Part shown: positions 12,047-26,239 of the stretch, in pieces
How the letters are laid out: every line of letters starts with the position of its first letter
Numbering within the stretch: position 1 is the first letter of the stretch
IMG/VR virus record: IMGVR_UViG_3300036760_001549
Location: 1-40,063 of that record
Direction: 5' to 3' (one strand)
DNA: 40,063 bases
Source: a virus
The notes under the pieces: model-generated
Told to the model about the DNA's origin: nothing
Database searches by the model: none
What the model saw: only the letters and a program-made list of their open reading frames with translations
Position numbers and translations under genes: made by a program

Positions 12047-12104
12047 AAAGTCGATCATGGGCCTTCTCCTTTTTTTCGCAATGGAAAAGAATTTCTCTAA
12101 ATGG

Positions 12105-12246
12105 TATAACTTTAGCTGTATGAGGAGAAGCATAATGTAACGCGTTAAAAGCAACGAGGCCCTGAGCGGCCCGCTTACCTAATTCGATAGCGGCTCTGAG
12201 AAGCCCGGTCGAAACATCGGCAACGGTGTTCCGACCGGGCTTTTTT
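12105..12246 (+). ncRNA. Candidate small RNA with repeats and terminator
   Basis: A possible -10 TATAAC (12105-12110; -35 weak) lies upstream of a 130-base region. It contains AGGAG followed by ATG-TAA (12135-12140, a start codon directly followed by a stop), then the paired units GAGGCCC/TGAGCGGCCC (12156-12172) and GCGGCTC/TGAGAAGCCC (12190-12206), and a terminator. No real ORF is present. The same repeat-plus-terminator arrangement recurs at 24858-24952. Existence as a separate transcript is inferred. Confidence 0.38.
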
Positions 12247-12250: not shown

Positions 12251-12487
12251 TTGGCCGACCTCTGAACAGGCCCTTGACGCGCGGTTGCGGCGTAAGTCTC
12301 TAGGCGCCGCAACCCGCTGCGGGAAAAGACGAATGAAAGATTTGAGCAGAAAAACGAAAAGCAGCGCCGGCCGGACGCTGCTTCGCAAGATTCTCGGGGG
12401 AGTACCTGGTGGGACTCGAAGGGTTGAGACCTTCGATTCCCCTCTCCTCCACCTCGGATCTAATACATCACAGAGAGTATACGCCGA
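12251..12487 (+). other. Noncoding region with three hairpins and a tRNA-like segment
   Basis: No ORF is convincing here. Three hairpins occur in series: GGTTGCGGCG/CGCCGCAACC (12283-12314), AAGCAGCG/CGCTGCTT (12359-12383) and GAAGG/CCTTC with a 7-base loop (12418-12434). The last lies inside a segment in which GGGGGAG (12396-12402) can pair with CTCCTCC (12444-12450), followed by ACC, like a shortened tRNA acceptor end. A T arm is missing, so a normal tRNA is excluded. It may be a structured leader of the hydrolase gene or a relic. Confidence 0.45.
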
Positions 12488-12913
12488 ATGATATTCACCG
12501 ATCAAGTCAAGGCCGCATTTTTCCTGGCGCTTCTCATCTGGCGGGAGAGCCGGGGCGAAGGCGCGCAGGGGATGACCGCGGTCGGCTGCAGCGTGCGCGA
12601 TCGCGTCAGGAACCCGGGCTGGTGGGGAAACGATTATCTGTCGGTGATCGAGAAGAAGTGGCAGTACAGTTCGCTCACCAATCCGAAAGACGGCCAGCTC
12701 ACCGCGTTTCCGCCGCAAGGCGATCCGCAATTCGATTTTGCGCTGGACTCTGCGATCGGGATCATCGGCGGTTGGGTTCGTCACCCGGTTGCCGGCGCGG
12801 ATTCGTACTATGACGATTCTATCCCGCCGCCCGAATGGGCGACACCGGACAAGCTTGTCGGCAAGATCGGACGTTTGAACTTTTACAACATCGATGGAAA
12901 GACGGAGGACTGA
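12488..12913 (+). CDS. SleB-type cell-wall hydrolase (candidate endolysin)
   Basis: A 141-residue protein with the Hydrolase_2/SleB signature: 'LIWRESRGEGAQGMTAVGCSV' (17-37), where E20 is the likely catalytic glutamate, followed by 'RDRVRNPGWWG' and a conserved-looking 'YSSLTNPKD' and 'DSYYDDSIPPPEW' region. These enzymes cut the glycan strand of peptidoglycan. No signal peptide is apparent, so export would need a holin, consistent with a phage endolysin. It precedes a run of exported-protein genes, with the next ATG one base after its stop. The ribosome binding site is weak. Confidence 0.85.
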   Translation: MIFTDQVKAAFFLALLIWRESRGEGAQGMTAVGCSVRDRVRNPGWWGNDYLSVIEKKWQYSSLTNPKDGQLTAFPPQGDPQFDFALDSAIGIIGGWVRHPVAGADSYYDDSIPPPEWATPDKLVGKIGRLNFYNIDGKTED

Positions 12914-12914
12914 A

Positions 12915-13754
12915 ATGCGAAGAATCACTTCTATTGCAATGTTCTTGTTCCTGCTGCTGCTTCCGCTTGTGGCGCAAGCGCACTACCGGGTGAACAGCAA
13001 GAACCCGGTCGTGGTGATTGTGAACACGGGCAACCTGGATGCGGAGCGCGCGCTCGGCGTTGCCCTGGGCCTGGCGCTTACTGATGGCGGCGCAAACGGG
13101 AGCGTCACGATCTCCTTCTCATATACGGCGACGCTTGCCTCAAATCCCGCTCTTGCCTCCGGCCACTGCCTTTGGGCCGCAACAGGATGGATTTGCGAGG
13201 GATTGACCGCCAACGATTACGAGACGCTTTTCACTATCACGGATCCAACTGCCGATCGGACGATTAATTTTCCCAACGCGAGCGGCAACGTATTGATGGA
13301 CGGTTCGCAAAACGGAGGAACCGATGTCACCGCTGATCTGGAAGAAGAAGGGCAGATCAAAGGCACGGCCGTAGCGGACGACGCGGGGAGCGCGGAGATT
13401 CTGGTCGGATCGGGTACGGCCGCGGCCGCCTGGGTCCCTGTATCCGGAGATGCAACGATCGCGACCGGCGGCGCCGTTACGGTAAGCCACGCAACGGCCG
13501 CAGATGGACTGGCCAGCAATCCGGCCGACTGCACCGGTGGGCAGTTTGCCGACACGATCGCAGCCAATGGAAATTTAACCTGCGCAACGCCGGCGATCGG
13601 CAGGCTCACGCCGCAGGCCGCGCCGCCGGCTGCGTGCGATGGAACCACTGAAGGGACGATGTACTACGACACTTCCGGCGCCGTGTGCGCATGCGTGCTT
13701 GTGTCCGCTTCGCTCGGATGGAACAAAATCCTCGGAGACGGAACGTGTTCATAA
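12915..13754 (+). CDS. Secreted fibre-like repetitive protein
   Basis: A 279-residue protein with a signal peptide (about 1-22, ending VAQAH). The mature part is rich in G, A, T, N and D, and has phrases typical of phage fibre or stalk proteins such as 'TADRTINFPNASGNVLMDG' and 'CDGTTEGTMYYDTSGAVCACV', the latter resembling C-terminal knobs of many uncultured phages. A signal peptide on such a protein is unusual for a virion part. The ATG at 12915 has GGAGG 7 bases upstream and is preferred over an upstream frame start. It overlaps the next gene by 10 bases. Confidence 0.66.
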   Translation: MRRITSIAMFLFLLLLPLVAQAHYRVNSKNPVVVIVNTGNLDAERALGVALGLALTDGGANGSVTISFSYTATLASNPALASGHCLWAATGWICEGLTANDYETLFTITDPTADRTINFPNASGNVLMDGSQNGGTDVTADLEEEGQIKGTAVADDAGSAEILVGSGTAAAAWVPVSGDATIATGGAVTVSHATAADGLASNPADCTGGQFADTIAANGNLTCATPAIGRLTPQAAPPAACDGTTEGTMYYDTSGAVCACVLVSASLGWNKILGDGTCS

Positions 13755-14182
13755 AACGCGTTCTGATTGCAGCTCTTGTCCTGGCCGTGGTCGGGCTCGC
13801 GGCGACATTCACCACGCAGGAAGTGCTGAACAGGGTTTATGACTCTGTCAACCACAGTCTGCGAATGGAAGAAGTCGCAAGCGTCGCTTATGGGAGCGGC
13901 GCCCAAATTTTCACCGGTACGGCCTCCGATGTTGTCGCGTCGATCCCGTCGGCTGCAAATTTCACAAACGATACTTACCGCCTCATCATCTGGAATTACG
14001 ACGGCACAAATACGCTCTATGCCAAGATCACCGGCACTGGAGCAACGACTGCCGACATCCAGATCAGACCGGGCGATCCGCCGCTCTACCTGGACTTTCG
14101 CACATCGCGAATAAGCCTGATCTGCGCAACTGGAAAAACCGCAGCATACCAGGTGCTGGTACTGGAGAAAGTGTGGCCGTGA
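13745..14182 (+). CDS. Exported or signal-anchored fibre-associated protein (GTG start)
   Basis: A 145-residue protein starting at GTG 13745, with GGAG 7 bases upstream; upstream in-frame ATGs lack such a site and lie within the previous gene. N-terminal hydrophobic segment 5-22 ('VLIAALVLAVVGLAATF'), then 'QEVLNRVYDSVNHSLRM', a phrase typical of phage fibre or attachment proteins, and a beta-rich domain. It overlaps both neighbours, so it is co-translated with the two fibre-like genes. It may be surface-displayed rather than virion-borne. Confidence 0.62.
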   Translation: MFIKRVLIAALVLAVVGLAATFTTQEVLNRVYDSVNHSLRMEEVASVAYGSGAQIFTGTASDVVASIPSAANFTNDTYRLIIWNYDGTNTLYAKITGTGATTADIQIRPGDPPLYLDFRTSRISLICATGKTAAYQVLVLEKVWP

Positions 14183-15471
14183 AGAAGCTCTGCTTTGTTC
14201 TCCTGATCTGTGCGGCCATTTGTCCGATCGGCGCATATGCGATGGACGGCTATCAGATCAACAGGAGAGCGCTCATCCCGCAGTCGACCAATGCCGGCGC
14301 ATCTGCGGCGCACGGTGCGATGAAAATCACCGCCATAGGCAAGACAGGTTGCCCGGGCGCCTGTGCTGTCGCGATTACGTGGGAAGCGCCAACTGTTGAT
14401 CAGTACGGCAATGCGTGCACTATTGCCACCTACAAGGTCTATCGCGGTGTCTTTCAGCCCTCCAACGTTTCCGAGCGCCTCATCGCAACAGTCAACGCTC
14501 CAACGGTCACCTACACAGATTCCACAGCGATGACTCAGATCAACGGGCACGCGGTCGATTACTTCTGGCGGATCTACGCGTGCAGCGCCGCAAACGTTTG
14601 TAGCTACTGGAAGCAGATCCCCAAAAATCATTCGAACAAGATCCAGTGGCAGACGTCCGGCACGGATTGGTACGGATCTTTCCGTCTCTTACGCAGAGAT
14701 TATCCTGGCGATTCGGTTTCTGCTTTCGCAAAACTTGATGGTTTAAATACTTTCGACGCGGACAATTTTGTTACCGGTGGCGCGGATCAGAACACGGCTT
14801 TGATTCTCCGATACGCCAGAGGGAACGATTACATCGAGCAGGCCTACACGCTGGCCGATGCCTCGAATGATTCCGTAAATGTCCCGTCGACCGCTACGAA
14901 AGCCACGGTTCCAAATCCAACGGCCTCGGGGGGCGGTAATGAGATAAACGTGTCCTGGCCTGCCGCAGGTGGAAGCATCTCCGGCTATAAGATCAGCCGC
15001 AACGGAATATTGATTGCGACCACGACTGACACTTCGATTACGAATGACATTTCCAGTCTGACCGCAAACCTGAAGTCGTGCGGCGCAGTGGGCGTCGGTT
15101 ACGGACTTCAGCTTTTGTTCTCGGACGGAACTACTTTCGGTGGCACGAGCTCGAACACGTTGTTTCGTAACGATTCACAGCCCGCAATTACTGCAACGCA
15201 AAACGGGCAGAACGCGGATCTTTCCTGGACGGCAGGCAGTGGATCCATCGATCACTATGAAGTGATCCGTAACTGGTGGGTTGAAAATCCTCCTGGCGGC
15301 GGGACGTATTACTGGAATCATCGGACATCAGCAAACACGTCCGCGCTCAGTTTTACAGACGATATCTCGGACATCCCGGCAACTCACCACGTTTGGTGGT
15401 ATCTGACAATTCACTTTTCCGACAGCTCGATTTGTGGCCCTCTCGACGGCCCGATGATCCAAAAACAATGA
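14173..15471 (+). CDS. Secreted multi-domain Fn3-like protein
   Basis: A 432-residue exported protein beginning at GTG 14173 (GGAGAAAGT upstream). It has a signal peptide (about 1-24, ending IGAYA) and then beta-sandwich domains with fibronectin type III character: 'VAITWEAPTVDQYGNACTIATYKVYRG', 'EINVSWPAAGGSISGYKISRNG' and 'NADLSWTAGSGSIDHYEVIRN'. The spaced W, Y and 'Y.I.R.G' repeats argue for three related domains (about 50-140, 245-335 and 338-430). Such modules bind carbohydrate or surfaces. It overlaps both neighbouring genes (ATGA with the peptidase). Confidence 0.7.
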   Translation: MAVKKLCFVLLICAAICPIGAYAMDGYQINRRALIPQSTNAGASAAHGAMKITAIGKTGCPGACAVAITWEAPTVDQYGNACTIATYKVYRGVFQPSNVSERLIATVNAPTVTYTDSTAMTQINGHAVDYFWRIYACSAANVCSYWKQIPKNHSNKIQWQTSGTDWYGSFRLLRRDYPGDSVSAFAKLDGLNTFDADNFVTGGADQNTALILRYARGNDYIEQAYTLADASNDSVNVPSTATKATVPNPTASGGGNEINVSWPAAGGSISGYKISRNGILIATTTDTSITNDISSLTANLKSCGAVGVGYGLQLLFSDGTTFGGTSSNTLFRNDSQPAITATQNGQNADLSWTAGSGSIDHYEVIRNWWVENPPGGGTYYWNHRTSANTSALSFTDDISDIPATHHVWWYLTIHFSDSSICGPLDGPMIQKQ

Positions 15472-16160
15472 TGATTGCAATTTTTCTTTTGTTTTCCGCG
15501 CTGCACTTTCCCGGAGAGATGCTCGCCGACGAATGGCGTTGGAACGAGAAGCCCACCGCGTACAAGAATAATAATTCGGTGGCAAAGCGATTTCTCGATG
15601 ATTTCGCCGATGATCTTGGTCGTTGGAACGGCGCGAAAATTGCCACACGGAGGTCCGCGCTCGATTTCAGATATCTCGCAGACGACGGCTCCGAATATTT
15701 CAGAACCCGTTATGGTATCGAAGTTTCCGGAGCATCATTGCAAGACTCTTATTTTCTTGACGGCGTCTTGCGGGATCTGCCTTCCTGGCAGATTGCAGGA
15801 CTGAAGAGAATTTCGATTGAGGCATGTCCGGATACGCTCGGCGGTTATTACATGGGTGTATCCGGAGAGGTGCATTTGTGCGCGGCCGAAATGCAGAGCG
15901 ATTCCTGCACTTCTGTCTGGCCCGACTACATCGCCCGGCGATTGTACATAGTGCTACACGAGATCGGCCACCACATATGGTTTGTAAATCTCCCGGAGAA
16001 GGTCCGTCAGGAATTTCAATCGATCACGATGCAAAACCCCGTAGAAAATTTTGCAAAGTTCTATGGATACGCGATCGTTTATCCCGAAGAACTCCACCAG
16101 CTGTCGCCACGACTAATGCATTTCTTTTCCGCGAAGATTTTTGTCACGAGGAAACCATGA
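15468..16160 (+). CDS. Secreted zinc metallopeptidase
   Basis: A 230-residue exported protein starting at the ATG overlapping the previous stop (ATGATG). Signal peptide about 1-20. Zinc site H164-E-I-G-H168-H within 'YIVLHEIGHHIWF', the HExxH zincin motif; 'NPVENFAKFYGYA' 20-odd residues later offers E193 as a third ligand, as in gluzincin-like or anthrax-lethal-factor-like peptidases. A cysteine pair region (C120, C138, C147) may form disulfides outside the cytoplasm. It probably cleaves an envelope or extracellular protein; the substrate is unknown. Confidence 0.78.
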   Translation: MMIAIFLLFSALHFPGEMLADEWRWNEKPTAYKNNNSVAKRFLDDFADDLGRWNGAKIATRRSALDFRYLADDGSEYFRTRYGIEVSGASLQDSYFLDGVLRDLPSWQIAGLKRISIEACPDTLGGYYMGVSGEVHLCAAEMQSDSCTSVWPDYIARRLYIVLHEIGHHIWFVNLPEKVRQEFQSITMQNPVENFAKFYGYAIVYPEELHQLSPRLMHFFSAKIFVTRKP

Positions 16161-16271
16161 ATGCGGATCGTGCTTGCCGTCCTGGTGCTTTTGCTGCTGG
16201 GCGCGCTTTCAACGCTTGCCGGGCTGCTGGCCGGCTACGCCTGGGAAAAGCGCAGAAGGAAAAAGCAATGA
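16161..16271 (+). CDS. Very small membrane protein (36 aa)
   Basis: Reads MRIVLAVLVLLLLGALSTLA then GLLAGYAWEKRRRKKQ: one transmembrane segment with a basic cytoplasmic tail. GAGGAAACC lies upstream, and the stop overlaps the next start (CAATGATG). It could be a pinholin, a small lysis regulator or a membrane anchor. No other evidence. Confidence 0.6.
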   Translation: MRIVLAVLVLLLLGALSTLAGLLAGYAWEKRRRKKQ

Positions 16272-16545
16272 TGCGGACGGTCTTCCTGGTCATCCTTGTG
16301 CTGCTCGTGGTCAACTTCGCCATTGCGGACACCGTGCGTCTGTCGGCGGCTTCTTCCGGTACTCAAAGCAGCCGGCAACGCCTCAAAATGTTCCGCCCGG
16401 TGTTCCGCCCAGTGAAACACTTTCGATTTCAGGGCCTACAACGCACGAAAGGCCGTTCCAACGCCCAAAGGGGCTCGGTTTTTATTCTGACCCGTTCGCG
16501 AACGATGCGAGCGGGTGCTGTAGCGATTTTAGGAGGAACCCATGA
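16268..16545 (+). CDS. Small exported protein, apparently frame-disrupted
   Basis: From ATG 16268 the frame encodes a good signal peptide (MMRTVFLVILVLLVVNFAIA). After about 16330 this frame turns arginine-rich and runs far into the next gene, while the frame one base back becomes protein-like: 'GGFFRYSKQPATPQNVPPGV', a proline-rich stretch, then 'KGLGFYSDPFANDASG', with a stop at 16545 that overlaps the next ATG (ATGA). That second frame has no start codon. So the gene is probably one exported, proline-rich protein of about 90 residues read with a -1 shift near 16330-16350, from sequencing error, mutation or unusual decoding. No canonical slippery heptamer is seen. Confidence 0.42.
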
Positions 16546-17006
16546 GAAATTTCAGACTTTCGAACGTCCTTGTTCTGATCCTGGTGGCTTGCACCGCCTT
16601 GATGCAGTTCGGGTGCCCAAGCGCGATCGCGCGCCGGGGCGTCAATCCATCGAGCGTTCACGACGACCTGGAATCCGTGATCGACGGATACAATACGGCC
16701 CAGGATCTGGCGCAGCAGGCCCACGATGCTGGGCTGATCCCGTCGCACGCCTGGAACGACTACGTTGTGACCGCGTCTGAAGCGGCAAACAGCGCGCTCC
16801 ATACGGCGGTGGCTGGACTGCGGGCATACAACGAAGCGCTGCAGGCTGTGGTCGACAACACGGATCCGGCGCAAAAGGACGCTCTGGCAGCCGAGGCGGA
16901 AAAGAAGAAAGCCGAGTCCGTGGAGTCTTTGACCGCGGCGAAAACCGCCATCAGCGATTTTCGGTCTGCAACCGACAAAGCAAAAACCGCAGCCGGCAAA
17001 TCCTGA
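16542..17006 (+). CDS. Helical lipoprotein, spanin-like candidate
   Basis: A 154-residue protein with an N-terminal hydrophobic segment (about 7-30) that includes L-V-A-C17, a valid lipobox. The rest is a long alpha-helical, alanine-rich, charged region ('EALQAVVDN', 'KDALAAEAEKKKAESVESL'), resembling coiled-coil lysis proteins or periplasmic lipoproteins. The ribosome binding site is strong (AGGAGG, 5 bases upstream). Position among small membrane proteins near the hydrolase and holin-like gene suits a spanin-type role, but there is no specific family match. Confidence 0.55.
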   Translation: MRNFRLSNVLVLILVACTALMQFGCPSAIARRGVNPSSVHDDLESVIDGYNTAQDLAQQAHDAGLIPSHAWNDYVVTASEAANSALHTAVAGLRAYNEALQAVVDNTDPAQKDALAAEAEKKKAESVESLTAAKTAISDFRSATDKAKTAAGKS

Positions 17007-17033
17007 GCTGCAGACATTTTAAGGGAGACGAAC

Positions 17034-17207
17034 ATGGATACACTTTTGATCTTCAGGTTGGTTGATCTCGGAATCAAATCCGGGCTTTCACTTGTTTCGC
17101 TTTTTCACCGCGCCAGCGAACGCGCCGCGCGCGAGAACCGTCCGATCAGCGGCGAGGATATTGACGCTCTGGAAAGCGAAATCAATCCGCCTCTTCAGAG
17201 AGATTGA
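17034..17207 (+). CDS. Hypothetical small protein (57 aa)
   Basis: Begins MDTLLIFRLVDLGIKSGLSL and ends in an acidic tail ('SGEDIDALESEINPPLQ'). The amphipathic N-terminal helix may lie on the membrane. GGGAGACG precedes the ATG, and the stop overlaps the next start (TGATG). No family recognised. Confidence 0.58.
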   Translation: MDTLLIFRLVDLGIKSGLSLVSLFHRASERAARENRPISGEDIDALESEINPPLQRD

Positions 17208-18688
17208 TGCGCAGGATTATTCTTCGCTCGCTTCTAGAGATGTCCCCGATTCTGGTTCTTGTGGTTGCGCTCTTCGCGTGCGCCGGCGGCGGCGGGCATC
17301 ACGGTCCGCCGCCGATCGCAGTTTGCGGAAACCACGTCTGCGAACCTGGCGAAACACCGGCAGGCTGCGCAGACTGCGCGGCGCCCGGGCCGGTCTGTGG
17401 TGATGGCGAGTGCGATTCTCCGGAGACGGCTGCGAACTGTGTTGTCGACTGCAAACCGCAGACCGTTTGCGGTAATGGCAAATGCGATGCCGGCGAGACG
17501 CAGGAAACTTGTCCTGTCGACTGCAAGCCAAAACCCGTATGCGGTGATGAACCGCTGGATCCGGATTGTCCGAAGATCACGCGCGATCACAGCCAGTGGA
17601 TATCGCTTGGGTTGTACGTGGGCGCGACGGGGCAAAGCAAGTTCGATCCCGTTGCGTTATTCCAACTGCTGAAAAAGTTCAACGCCGTCGCGATCCATGA
17701 GCTGAGCCCCTGGAACGCCGAGGACGGGTACGGGCCGTTCAAGTTCGATCCTTCAAAGAAGATCTTTCTTCTTTCCGAATGGAACGAAGATTGGTGGGCA
17801 CATTTCCGGCTGATCCTGCGCGCGGCCGCCTACTACGACCACGGCCTCGAGCTATGCCTGCTCGATTCATACGGTGGATCCCACTGGCAGCGCTACCACG
17901 GCATTGCGAAATATTCGCCGTGGCGAAACAACGATACGCGGGACATCTGCGGCGATGACAATTGTATGGGGTTTTACAATAACTGGAATCGCCAGAACCC
18001 TGCCGACAAGAAGAACTACAGGGTATTCAACTGGACCGACGAATTCAAGTGGGAAACGTACAAGGGCACATCCGGCGCCGGCGAAGCCGTGATCGGATAT
18101 ATCAAACGTACGGCGCAGGAATGCGCCGAGGTGAGGAAGGAGTTTCCGGATTTCCGTTTGCTGATTCGATCGGCAAATGAAGGCGTGAGTTACGTGGGCG
18201 CCGATGGGCGCACGATTGACTACAGCAAGAAGAAGTATCTTGACGATCGTTGGGACATCCTGGTCTCCGGTATTTTCAAGGCGGCCGGCTTCGTGGTTGG
18301 GAAAAGCTACAACTACGTCTACACCATCACCACACTTAACACAGACCAAACTTGGAACGCATACTGGCCTGAAAAGACGATGCGCCAGTTCATCAAACCG
18401 CGTCGCGTGTTGGTTACCTGGCACAACATCCAGTCCAGGAAGGACCTGGACTTCTTTCACGTGGTCTGCGGTTTTCCGTTTGGGAATTTTTATCCCTCAT
18501 CGGATGGGGACAAAGAAGACAGTGAGTACTACGACGAGATGCGCGCGATAGCCGCGCTGAAGCTGCCTTATTTTGATTACAAACTGTACGCTGAATACGA
18601 TGGTCCGGACAGATGGCGCGATCTCGATCTTAACTGGAACGTGCAGCATTACGTGCCGGCACAGGAAGCTGCCGTTTTTGCACATTGA
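17207..18688 (+). CDS. Lipoprotein with three Cys-rich repeats and a glycosidase-like domain
   Basis: A 493-residue exported protein. Signal sequence 1-24 and a probable lipidated C25 in 'ALFACAGGGG'. Three tandem knottin-like repeats of the form C-G-x-G-x-C-x-x-x-E-T-x-x-x-C-x-x-D-C at about 40-57, 64-82 and 88-106, a motif often used as spacer in secreted proteins of Myxococcota and other environmental bacteria. The remaining ~370 residues look like a TIM-barrel hydrolase: 'VAIHELSPWN', 'LELCLLDSYGG', 'YRVFNWTDEF', 'FRLLIRSANEG' and 'RRVLVTWHN' at spacing expected for barrel strands. A glycoside hydrolase acting on surface polysaccharide is plausible; catalytic acids cannot be fixed. The ATG overlaps the preceding stop. 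Confidence 0.66.
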   Translation: MRRIILRSLLEMSPILVLVVALFACAGGGGHHGPPPIAVCGNHVCEPGETPAGCADCAAPGPVCGDGECDSPETAANCVVDCKPQTVCGNGKCDAGETQETCPVDCKPKPVCGDEPLDPDCPKITRDHSQWISLGLYVGATGQSKFDPVALFQLLKKFNAVAIHELSPWNAEDGYGPFKFDPSKKIFLLSEWNEDWWAHFRLILRAAAYYDHGLELCLLDSYGGSHWQRYHGIAKYSPWRNNDTRDICGDDNCMGFYNNWNRQNPADKKNYRVFNWTDEFKWETYKGTSGAGEAVIGYIKRTAQECAEVRKEFPDFRLLIRSANEGVSYVGADGRTIDYSKKKYLDDRWDILVSGIFKAAGFVVGKSYNYVYTITTLNTDQTWNAYWPEKTMRQFIKPRRVLVTWHNIQSRKDLDFFHVVCGFPFGNFYPSSDGDKEDSEYYDEMRAIAALKLPYFDYKLYAEYDGPDRWRDLDLNWNVQHYVPAQEAAVFAH

Positions 18689-24300: not shown

Positions 24301-24691
24301 GTTTTTCCAGGACGACACGGCAGAAGATTTGGTAACCGGTTACTCGGCTCTCGCTTCGGCTGCCGCGCTTGGCGAAGTGTTTTACGCGGACGAAGTGGAG
24401 CTGCTTTCCAAGACCCGACAGGCGATCGATGACCGCGGCGTGGATCCGCTGACCAACGACGAACTGCGCAACGCCGATGTGAACGTGATCGATTCTCTCG
24501 AATCTCTGCTCACCGATTTCCTTGCGGACAAACGAGCGTTCGCCGATCTCTCTCCCTTCTCGATCGACGAATCCGATCTTACCAACTGGTGGTTCCGGCT
24601 CAATGAAATTCTTGCCGGCTCAATCGACACCGAGGACCTTCCGGAGTATCTGAAAGATGCAGCGACAAAGCACAGCACGGCAAGAGCCTGA
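24290..24691 (+). CDS. Acidic helical protein, candidate immunity partner
   Basis: A 133-residue protein, strongly acidic and helical ('NADVNVIDSLESLLTDFLADK', 'EILAGSIDTEDLPEYLKDA'), starting 11 bases before the MuF stop in another frame. Small acidic proteins right after polymorphic toxins are often immunity proteins that shield the nuclease by mimicking its nucleic-acid substrate. That role is inferred from position and charge; no family was recognised. A generic head-module protein remains possible. Confidence 0.55.
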   Translation: MAAKFFQDDTAEDLVTGYSALASAAALGEVFYADEVELLSKTRQAIDDRGVDPLTNDELRNADVNVIDSLESLLTDFLADKRAFADLSPFSIDESDLTNWWFRLNEILAGSIDTEDLPEYLKDAATKHSTARA

Positions 24692-24851
24692 ACCTGAGCA
24701 GATCCGGATCCGGGTCCTTGATGATTACGTTGAGCTCAAGTGTCCTTATTGCAAAAGGACCAACGGGGAGAGTAAGATTGTAGCTGATACGAAGTCAAAG
24801 AAGATTATTCGGATCGTTTGTAAGAAGTGCGGTAAGCTTTCGGAGTTTTGA
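24657..24851 (+). CDS. Small zinc-ribbon protein (64 aa)
   Basis: Encodes a basic protein with a two-knuckle zinc ribbon: 'LKCPYCKRTN' and 'IVCKKCGKLSEF' with 20-odd residues between. It resembles in shape the Mu Com translational activator, which also is a ~60-residue zinc ribbon, though the order of the knuckle motifs differs, so I do not assign that name. It overlaps the preceding gene by 35 bases and ends just before the repeat module at 24858. Confidence 0.62.
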   Translation: MQRQSTARQEPEPEQIRIRVLDDYVELKCPYCKRTNGESKIVADTKSKKIIRIVCKKCGKLSEF

Positions 24852-24857
24852 AAAACT

Positions 24858-24952
24858 GAGCGGCCCTGAGCGGCCCGAGAAAATTTAAAGAGCGGCCCTG
24901 AGCGGCCCGGTCAAAGCATCACCACGGTGCTTTGACCGGGCCTTTTGTTTTT
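24858..24952 (+). repeat. Tandem GAGCGGCCC module with terminator (copy 2)
   Basis: GAGCGGCCC-TGAGCGGCCC (24858-24876), an AT-rich spacer, and the same pair again (24890-24908), running straight into a terminator hairpin. This order, with diverged sequence, is found at 12156-12246. The two hairpins differ at paired positions in a compensatory way, which points to a conserved RNA structure. Confidence 0.72.
24904..24952 (+). terminator. Strong intrinsic terminator directly before the protease gene
   Basis: GGCCCGGTCAAAGCA (24904-24918) pairs perfectly with TGCTTTGACCGGGCC (24928-24942), followed by TTTTGTTTTT ending at 24952. The next ATG is at 24953. A terminator in the middle of the head operon implies read-through, antitermination or a separate promoter further down. 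Confidence 0.88.
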
Positions 24953-26239
24953 ATGCCAAACACACTGATCGAGATGCTGGATGCAAAGACGATCCATGCG
25001 CGTCTTCACATGCCCGATACGTTCCTGAAGTTCATCACCAGGAGCGAACTGAAAAAGCTTGGCGCCGAAGATTCGGCGGAAGCTGCATCCGATGCGCCGC
25101 TCTCGTTTGTGCCCAAGGAAAGCGACTTCATCTATCCGACTTTCCGCGCGATCAGCAAAGCCTACCTTGGAAAGTTCGGTTACTACATGGACTTCTCAAA
25201 GGCCGACGTCCTGGAACAATCCGTGCCGCTTCTGAACGGCGTTGGAATCTATGCCGACCACAACGACGATCCTATGCGCGTACTGGGCGCAGTCGATCAG
25301 GCGATCTGGAACACGGAAGGAAAGGCTCCCGGCATCAATGTGGTGATGAAGATCGACGCGGCCGCAAATCCGCGAATCGCCCGCGCGCTTCTTATGGATC
25401 CGCCTGCGCTCAAGTCCTGTTCGATCGCACCGTTTATGCAAATGTCACGGTCCCATCCCGATCTGGACGGATGGACGTTCTACGATCTGCTCGGTCTTGA
25501 AGTCGAAGGACAGATCGTGCGTTTCATCGTGGACAAGATCGATCTCTACAAAGAGCTGTCGATCGTTTCCCGCGGCGGTGATCTGGAAGCAAACAAGCAG
25601 GTCGGCGATGCGGCGGAATCCTTCCGGCTCAAGATGCGCGATCGCCACGTGGGCGAAAAGAAAACGGCGGTTTCCATACCGGCTGCTCACCTGCGTATGG
25701 TCGATGGCCGCGAAGGTTCGCACGTTTCGGTAACACTATCCCAACCAACGGAGGAAAAGATGAACAAGGCCCTTCTAAAACTGCTCGGTCTGACAGATGA
25801 AAGTCCATCGCAGGATGCGATCGATGCCGCAATTTTAACGCTCACCGAAACGAACGCTTCCCTGAAAACTAAGGCGGGCGATCTGGAAGGTCAGATCGCA
25901 AAGCTGAAAGCGGAGAAGGACGCACTGGCCCTCCGCGCAGCCGACGGCGACAAGTACCTGGCCGACGTGCGTGCCGATGCGGTCCGCCTGGCCACGCTTG
26001 TTGCGCAAAACGGCAAGCTCAACGACACGGTAAAAAAGCTCATCAGCAATGCGTCGCTTACCGAAGCCCTGGACGTGCGTAAAGATTACCAGGGCCAGGT
26101 CACCGTGGCGTTTCCGCTCAAGTGCCAGGCGTGCGGAAAGCAGCAGGTCGAACGGCGATCCTCGATCGAGGAGCCGGTCACAAGCAATAAAACACCGGAG
26201 AAAGCCGGCAAGGACTTTTCCGGATTCACTTTTCAATAG
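24953..26239 (+). CDS. Prohead protease-scaffold polyprotein
   Basis: A 428-residue protein equivalent to Mu gpI or S78-type protease plus scaffold. Candidate catalytic residues are H103 in 'GVGIYADHNDD' and S157 in 'ALKSCSIAP', with 'KELSIVSRGG' as the following strand, as in prohead proteases. Residues ~262-270 link to a coiled-coil scaffold (about 300-332, 'KTKAGDLEGQIAKLKAEKDA'), then 'LKCQACGKQ' and RSSIEEPVT at 402-410. The ATG abuts the T-tract of the terminator and has no ribosome binding site; 'MLDAKTIHARLHM' at residue 8 is an alternative start. The scaffold part also has its own start. Confidence 0.82.
   Translation: MPNTLIEMLDAKTIHARLHMPDTFLKFITRSELKKLGAEDSAEAASDAPLSFVPKESDFIYPTFRAISKAYLGKFGYYMDFSKADVLEQSVPLLNGVGIYADHNDDPMRVLGAVDQAIWNTEGKAPGINVVMKIDAAANPRIARALLMDPPALKSCSIAPFMQMSRSHPDLDGWTFYDLLGLEVEGQIVRFIVDKIDLYKELSIVSRGGDLEANKQVGDAAESFRLKMRDRHVGEKKTAVSIPAAHLRMVDGREGSHVSVTLSQPTEEKMNKALLKLLGLTDESPSQDAIDAAILTLTETNASLKTKAGDLEGQIAKLKAEKDALALRAADGDKYLADVRADAVRLATLVAQNGKLNDTVKKLISNASLTEALDVRKDYQGQVTVAFPLKCQACGKQQVERRSSIEEPVTSNKTPEKAGKDFSGFTFQ
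25760..26239 (+). CDS. Nested scaffold protein (internal start)
   Basis: Within the protease gene, in the same frame, ATG 25760 is preceded by CGGAGGAAAAG, the best ribosome binding site in the region. It would make a 159-residue protein starting MNKALLKLLGL, consisting of the coiled coil and C-terminal tail. This is the arrangement known for Mu gpZ inside I and lambda Nu3 inside C, where the extra copies are scaffold. It would outnumber the full-length protease. Confidence 0.8.
   Translation: MNKALLKLLGLTDESPSQDAIDAAILTLTETNASLKTKAGDLEGQIAKLKAEKDALALRAADGDKYLADVRADAVRLATLVAQNGKLNDTVKKLISNASLTEALDVRKDYQGQVTVAFPLKCQACGKQQVERRSSIEEPVTSNKTPEKAGKDFSGFTFQ

Follow-up and report, generated by a model that had tools for sequence, protein, structure and literature searches.

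Doubled Com-type mini-hairpins overlapping terminators before the hydrolase and protease genes of a Mu-like phage: candidate late-operon attenuators

The window, by which is meant the whole 40,063-bp stretch of DNA analysed, is an IMG/VR virus contig of a divergent Mu-like (transposable) phage with a B3-like layout. Early genes are on the minus strand and encode a GemA-like protein, a D12 DNA methyltransferase, Gam, a MuB-like ATPase and a MuA-like transposase. Late genes are on the plus strand; these include the genes for TerS (19370), TerL (19893), the portal (21485), the minor head protein (23080), the major head protein (26613) and the tape measure (32289). The same strand carries a cell-wall hydrolase gene (12488-12913; Hydrolase_2, phrog_938 endolysin) and a head maturation protease gene (24953-26239; phrog_8158, E 4.8e-41), the relatives of which align from residue 8 onward. 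The interval from the hydrolase to the terminase (12894-18688) is a run of ORFs for signal-peptide and lipoprotein-like products, which gave scarcely any family matches. By structural genes, the closest kin are prophages in Neomarinimicrobiota MAGs (~40% portal identity) and a Leptospira plasmid prophage (L025).

Two homologous modules of ~90 nt are found on the plus strand, at 12156-12246 and 24857-24952. The hydrolase gene is the first late gene after module 1. Module 2 is directly behind a gene for a 64-aa four-cysteine zinc ribbon (24657-24851, plus strand), and its U-tract abuts the protease ATG with zero gap. A preliminary description of this DNA had recognised a pair of repeat-plus-terminator units here; this is confirmed, and the sequences and coordinates hold, with module 2 beginning at 24857. 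The stem and U-tract of the module 1 intrinsic terminator occupy 12200-12246 (-32.8 kcal/mol, z -6.84). The module 2 terminator has a 17-bp stem (24904-24942) and a U-tract (24943-24952), and folds at -35.2 kcal/mol (z -8.40). Against shuffles, z is thus -6.8 and -8.4 for the terminators alone; it is -4.7 and -4.4 with the repeats included.

The repeats upstream of each terminator are better read as doublets of mini-hairpins of the form GGCY-CUGAGM-RGCC. In module 1, hairpin A (12158-12171, plus strand) is GGCC-CUGAGC-GGCC and hairpin B (12192-12205, plus strand) is GGCU-CUGAGA-AGCC, so that pairing is kept although the direct repeat is broken. In module 2, hairpins A (24862-24875) and B (24894-24907), both on the plus strand, are GGCC-CUGAGC-GGCC. 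The window has four CTGAG loops on 4-bp stems, each of them inside a module (0.13 expected per shuffle). A scan of both strands of the 40 kb with a wider Com pattern returned the same four module hairpins and no others; the background for Com-pattern hairpins is ~1.7 per 40 kb (43 control loci). The exact 10-mer TGAGCGGCCC is present five times in the window, with four copies in the modules and an extra copy noted at the 5' edge of module 2 (24857-24866, plus strand). When two mismatches are allowed, its frequency is no higher than chance.

The 3' arm of hairpin B (RGCC; 12202-12205 in module 1 and 24904-24907 in module 2) is also the base of the terminator 5' arm. Because this arm is common to both, hairpin B and the terminator are mutually exclusive; R pairs either with the Y of hairpin B or with the Y of the terminator 3' arm. 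Between the window modules all three letters (hairpin B, RGCC and terminator) covary, U-A-U versus C-G-C, and a base pair changes from A-U to G-C. The terminator arms show few differences between copies 1 and 2: changes from G-C to A-T and from A-T to G-C are compensated, and an A.C mismatch in copy 1 is an A-T pair in copy 2. When relatives are included, 10 of 22 predicted pairs are changed on both sides. The modules number seven in all; they come from four phage groups, and some are near-identical. Three-way RGCC pairing holds in 82/84 cells across the seven modules; the exceptions are one outer A.C pair in each hairpin of the L079 group described below. Formal covariation counts for hairpin B alone in the seven sequences are not above shuffles (75/500). 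With two copies to rest on, the earlier claim that covariation shows a maintained RNA structure was too strong. The A+B region folds no better than shuffles. Hairpins A and B are weak alone, and the nascent RNA favours other pairings by 0 to 7 kcal/mol.

A possible promoter for module 1 (TGGAAA-17-TATAAC; 12082-12110, plus strand) stands ~45 nt upstream of the module; it scores 9/12, which is also reached by 5% of random 120-nt stretches. The module 1 leader also contains a start-stop mini-ORF (12123-12140), in which a Shine-Dalgarno-like AGGAG is followed by seven bases, ATG and then TAA. No promoter-like site was found upstream of module 2, which may be reached via read-through from upstream. 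Since the protease ATG abuts the U-tract, there is no promoter room at that point, and a transcript of the gene either passes the terminator or starts within the hairpin. Between module 1 and the hydrolase gene there is a GC-rich terminator-like hairpin with a T-tract on the minus strand (12358-12384). Just before the hydrolase gene, a stretch at 12396-12454 (GGGGGAGTACC...GACCTTCGATTCCCCTCTCCTCCACC) resembles a tRNA without the anticodon arm; neither ARAGORN nor Rfam makes a call here, and it folds mildly better than shuffles.

Three unrelated phage groups in IMG/VR proved, in pattern scans, to share this architecture, beside genes for Com-family or Com-like zinc ribbons. A search of related phages for tandem pairs beside terminators, as had been suggested, therefore yields modules (L079, G251, L126 and L131/L133). 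The doublet pattern alone returned five near-identical contigs (the L079 group), each carrying a pair of 22-nt repeats of which the latter runs into the terminator; the doublet is directly behind a Com-family gene. The doublet plus GGCYTTTT returned G251 (with two modules), L126 and the L131/L133 group. These patterns fixed the loop and the terminator end, and in the first scan also three bases of one hairpin 5' arm; full 5' arms, neighbour genes and operon position were not selected. Even so, the 5' and 3' arms are complementary in every one of the seven modules, the L079 outer A.C excepted. A relaxed whole-architecture search of 1.46 Mb, using a pattern that excludes window module 2 and L079, returned only window module 1 and the known L126, G251 and L131/L133 modules.

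G251 is a 35-kb Mu-like phage, and its two module copies are in places that match those of the window: the window modules precede the hydrolase and protease genes, and those of G251 likewise precede a lysis gene and a protease region. Module b is directly before an M15-type endolysin gene; module a is between Mu F-like and Com-like genes and the protease region. The G251 protease is putative; it was not recognised in a Pfam scan, and the call rests on its location ahead of the major head protein and on its appearance. In G253 the order is Gam, Com-like gene, promoter-like site, module, amidase endolysin, TerS, TerL, portal and protease. G251a and G253 each have a sigma-70 promoter-like site scoring 10/12 shortly before the module; a leader RNA from there would be scarcely longer than the module itself. 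The L131/L133 group (G253/G254) keeps the stems and the terminator overlap, with the loop UUCAC replacing CUGAG; RNA specificity has possibly shifted together with the divergent Com-like protein.

No module was found in the sequence examined from the Neomarinimicrobiota kin, in the portal relatives (L029-L031, L065-L068 and, from IMG/VR, L037-L064) or in the Leptospira plasmid prophage. Scans of IMG/VR with the exact 20-mer and 19-mer repeats gave nothing or chance coding matches. Single-protein scans with the protease and with TerL gave no relatives; the collections may omit close kin. Covariance model matches in Neomarinimicrobiota (L151-L153) are plain terminators. A weak candidate (G255/L134; 19.7 bits) has a 3-bp stem and no upstream zinc-ribbon ORF was found; it is not counted.

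SELEX with a Mu-like Com zinc finger (Nowacka et al. 2019) selected GAG(N)2CC (PMC6483171). Com recognises this as CC(N)2-3GAG within a hairpin loop of six residues on a 3-4 bp stem; the C-G pair that closes the loop is invariant, and the GA is protected (PMC6483171). This published target is matched by GGCC-CUGAGC-GGCC and AGCC-CUGAGA-GGCC. Three of the four window hairpins conform to it; hairpin B of module 1 departs in having a U-A closing pair and CU replacing CC. The G251 hairpins match with a 7-nt loop.

Zinc-ribbon ORFs are found just upstream of modules in L079, G251, L131/L133 and the window. In the second scan they are present at every true module whose upstream sequence is visible, the second G251 copy excepted, and at 0/10 chance matches. 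The Com-family gene of the L079 group matches PF10122 (E=5e-9); the Com-like gene of G251 gives E 9.5e-4 to 9.5e-5, which is significant but under the cut-off, and the protein beside the G253/G254 module is divergent Com-like. The window zinc ribbon is Com-like by profile comparison only: hhalign against the Com profile gives a probability of 84% with both Cys pairs aligned, compared with 6.6% for a zinc-knuckle control protein. It has no match to the Pfam Com model, and PDB sequence and fold searches gave nothing significant.

Hairpin B shares bases with the terminator, which suggests that a Com-like protein passes RNA polymerase into the late genes. We consider it somewhat probable that the modules are late-operon leader attenuators relieved by a Com-like RNA-binding protein. 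Each module would be a protein-responsive attenuator in the leader of a Mu-like phage late operon. When the protein is absent, the strong intrinsic terminator would form and RNA polymerase would halt just before the first gene. When present, the zinc ribbon would bind hairpins A and B at their conserved loops on the emerging RNA; in the window the ligand is probably the 64-aa protein, and one protein may serve both modules. With hairpin B held, RGCC would be withdrawn from the terminator base and the stem would fail to close beside the U-tract. Binding would thus act as antitermination, with read-through into lysis and packaging genes (module 1) or protease, capsid and tail genes (module 2). 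Hairpins A and B are too weak to win alone. This fits termination as the default, but it is also where the model is most vulnerable.

Several known systems resemble this arrangement in part. Mu Com/mom has a small CCCC zinc protein, a short hairpin with a CC(N)2-3GAG loop beside an inhibitory RNA structure, and the gene just upstream. The modules differ in having two hairpins each and, as the inhibitory structure, an intrinsic terminator ahead of lysis and protease genes, whereas the inhibitory stem in Mu blocks translation before a DNA-modification gene. In the BglG/SacY/LicT systems a protein-stabilised RAT hairpin overlaps the 5' arm of the leader terminator, as hairpin B does; here the candidate protein is a zinc ribbon and there are two hairpins per leader. 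No CAT_RBD/PRD antiterminator domain was found by Pfam among the subset of window proteins scanned. Lambda nut and HK022 put are, like the modules, RNA elements in phage operons tied to termination, but they act on distant terminators, whereas the module element overlaps its own. No boxA (looked for by eye) and no boxB-like pentaloop was seen in the modules. A likeness of GCCCUGA to lambda boxB was rejected; loop size, stem and the missing boxA do not fit. There is also no Rfam match to a known RNA family or riboswitch. Of the preliminary suggestions, a binding site for a phage RNA-binding protein next to a terminator has good support; the site resembles the Com target and not nut/put.

The known action of Com is translational (PMC6483171), and the long hairpin could instead block the ribosome before the start codon until a Com-like protein opens it, as at mom. 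The start codon is 10 nt past the stem in module 2 and is also close in G251a. A purely translational hairpin needs no U-tract, yet every module keeps a canonical one; the gene start is farther off in module 1 and G251b, and G251b has its own Shine-Dalgarno. Translational control in place of attenuation is unlikely, if the most credible of the alternatives; the same hairpin could block translation as well, and both levels may be used. Rather less likely again, the terminators, which are strong alone, are ordinary late-operon boundaries and the hairpins are protein sites for RNA stability, autoregulation or pro-termination, the protein perhaps raising termination. The shared bases mean that binding of hairpin B should weaken the terminator, not help it, and there is no visible promoter after the terminator for the protease and all following genes.

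Control points directly before a lysis gene and a protease gene recall Mu Plys and PI, whose places in the Mu gene order we take to be those of the window modules; here the element is a terminator-bearing RNA leader. The Mu lys and I promoters are activated by C (PMC4461284), and the GGCC arms are palindromic in DNA. The near-palindromic GGCC-N6-GGCC might be a DNA operator for a late activator such as C, with an incidental terminator overlap. We regard this as improbable, as the CUGAG loop is conserved and strand-specific, the candidate promoters of G251a, G253 and module 1 precede the sites, and hairpin B changes track the terminator. No Mor/C family activator was found among the early proteins scanned (a subset of the window), although distant members could escape. 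As copies of part of the terminator arm, the repeats might be a neutral local duplication of its 5' arm with no function of their own; this is very improbable, since unrelated phages have them at the same pair of operon positions, beside zinc-ribbon genes.

What is understood of late gene control in Mu-like phages comes from Mu, where it depends on the C activator; to our knowledge such control is largely unexplored beyond Mu, and we know of a single job for Com, activation of mom translation. If attenuation by these modules is correct, the recurrent association of Com-like proteins with doubled Com-type hairpins and terminators ahead of lysis and capsid operons would represent a second, transcriptional Com role; it would also provide an antitermination system that is simple, can be tested directly and has a factor of ~60 aa. 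More tentatively, and at rather less than even confidence, Com-like zinc ribbons might be an unrecognised class of antiterminators which switch on late operons via a terminator-competing Com-type hairpin; mom control would be an offshoot. In B3-like phages of Pseudomonas, Burkholderia and Curvibacter (L120-L125), GAGNNCC-type repeats are found at the 3' end of com. These do not pass the strict Com hairpin pattern. They could form two GGC..GCC mini-hairpins, mostly just before the methyltransferase start, and look like natural Com sites.
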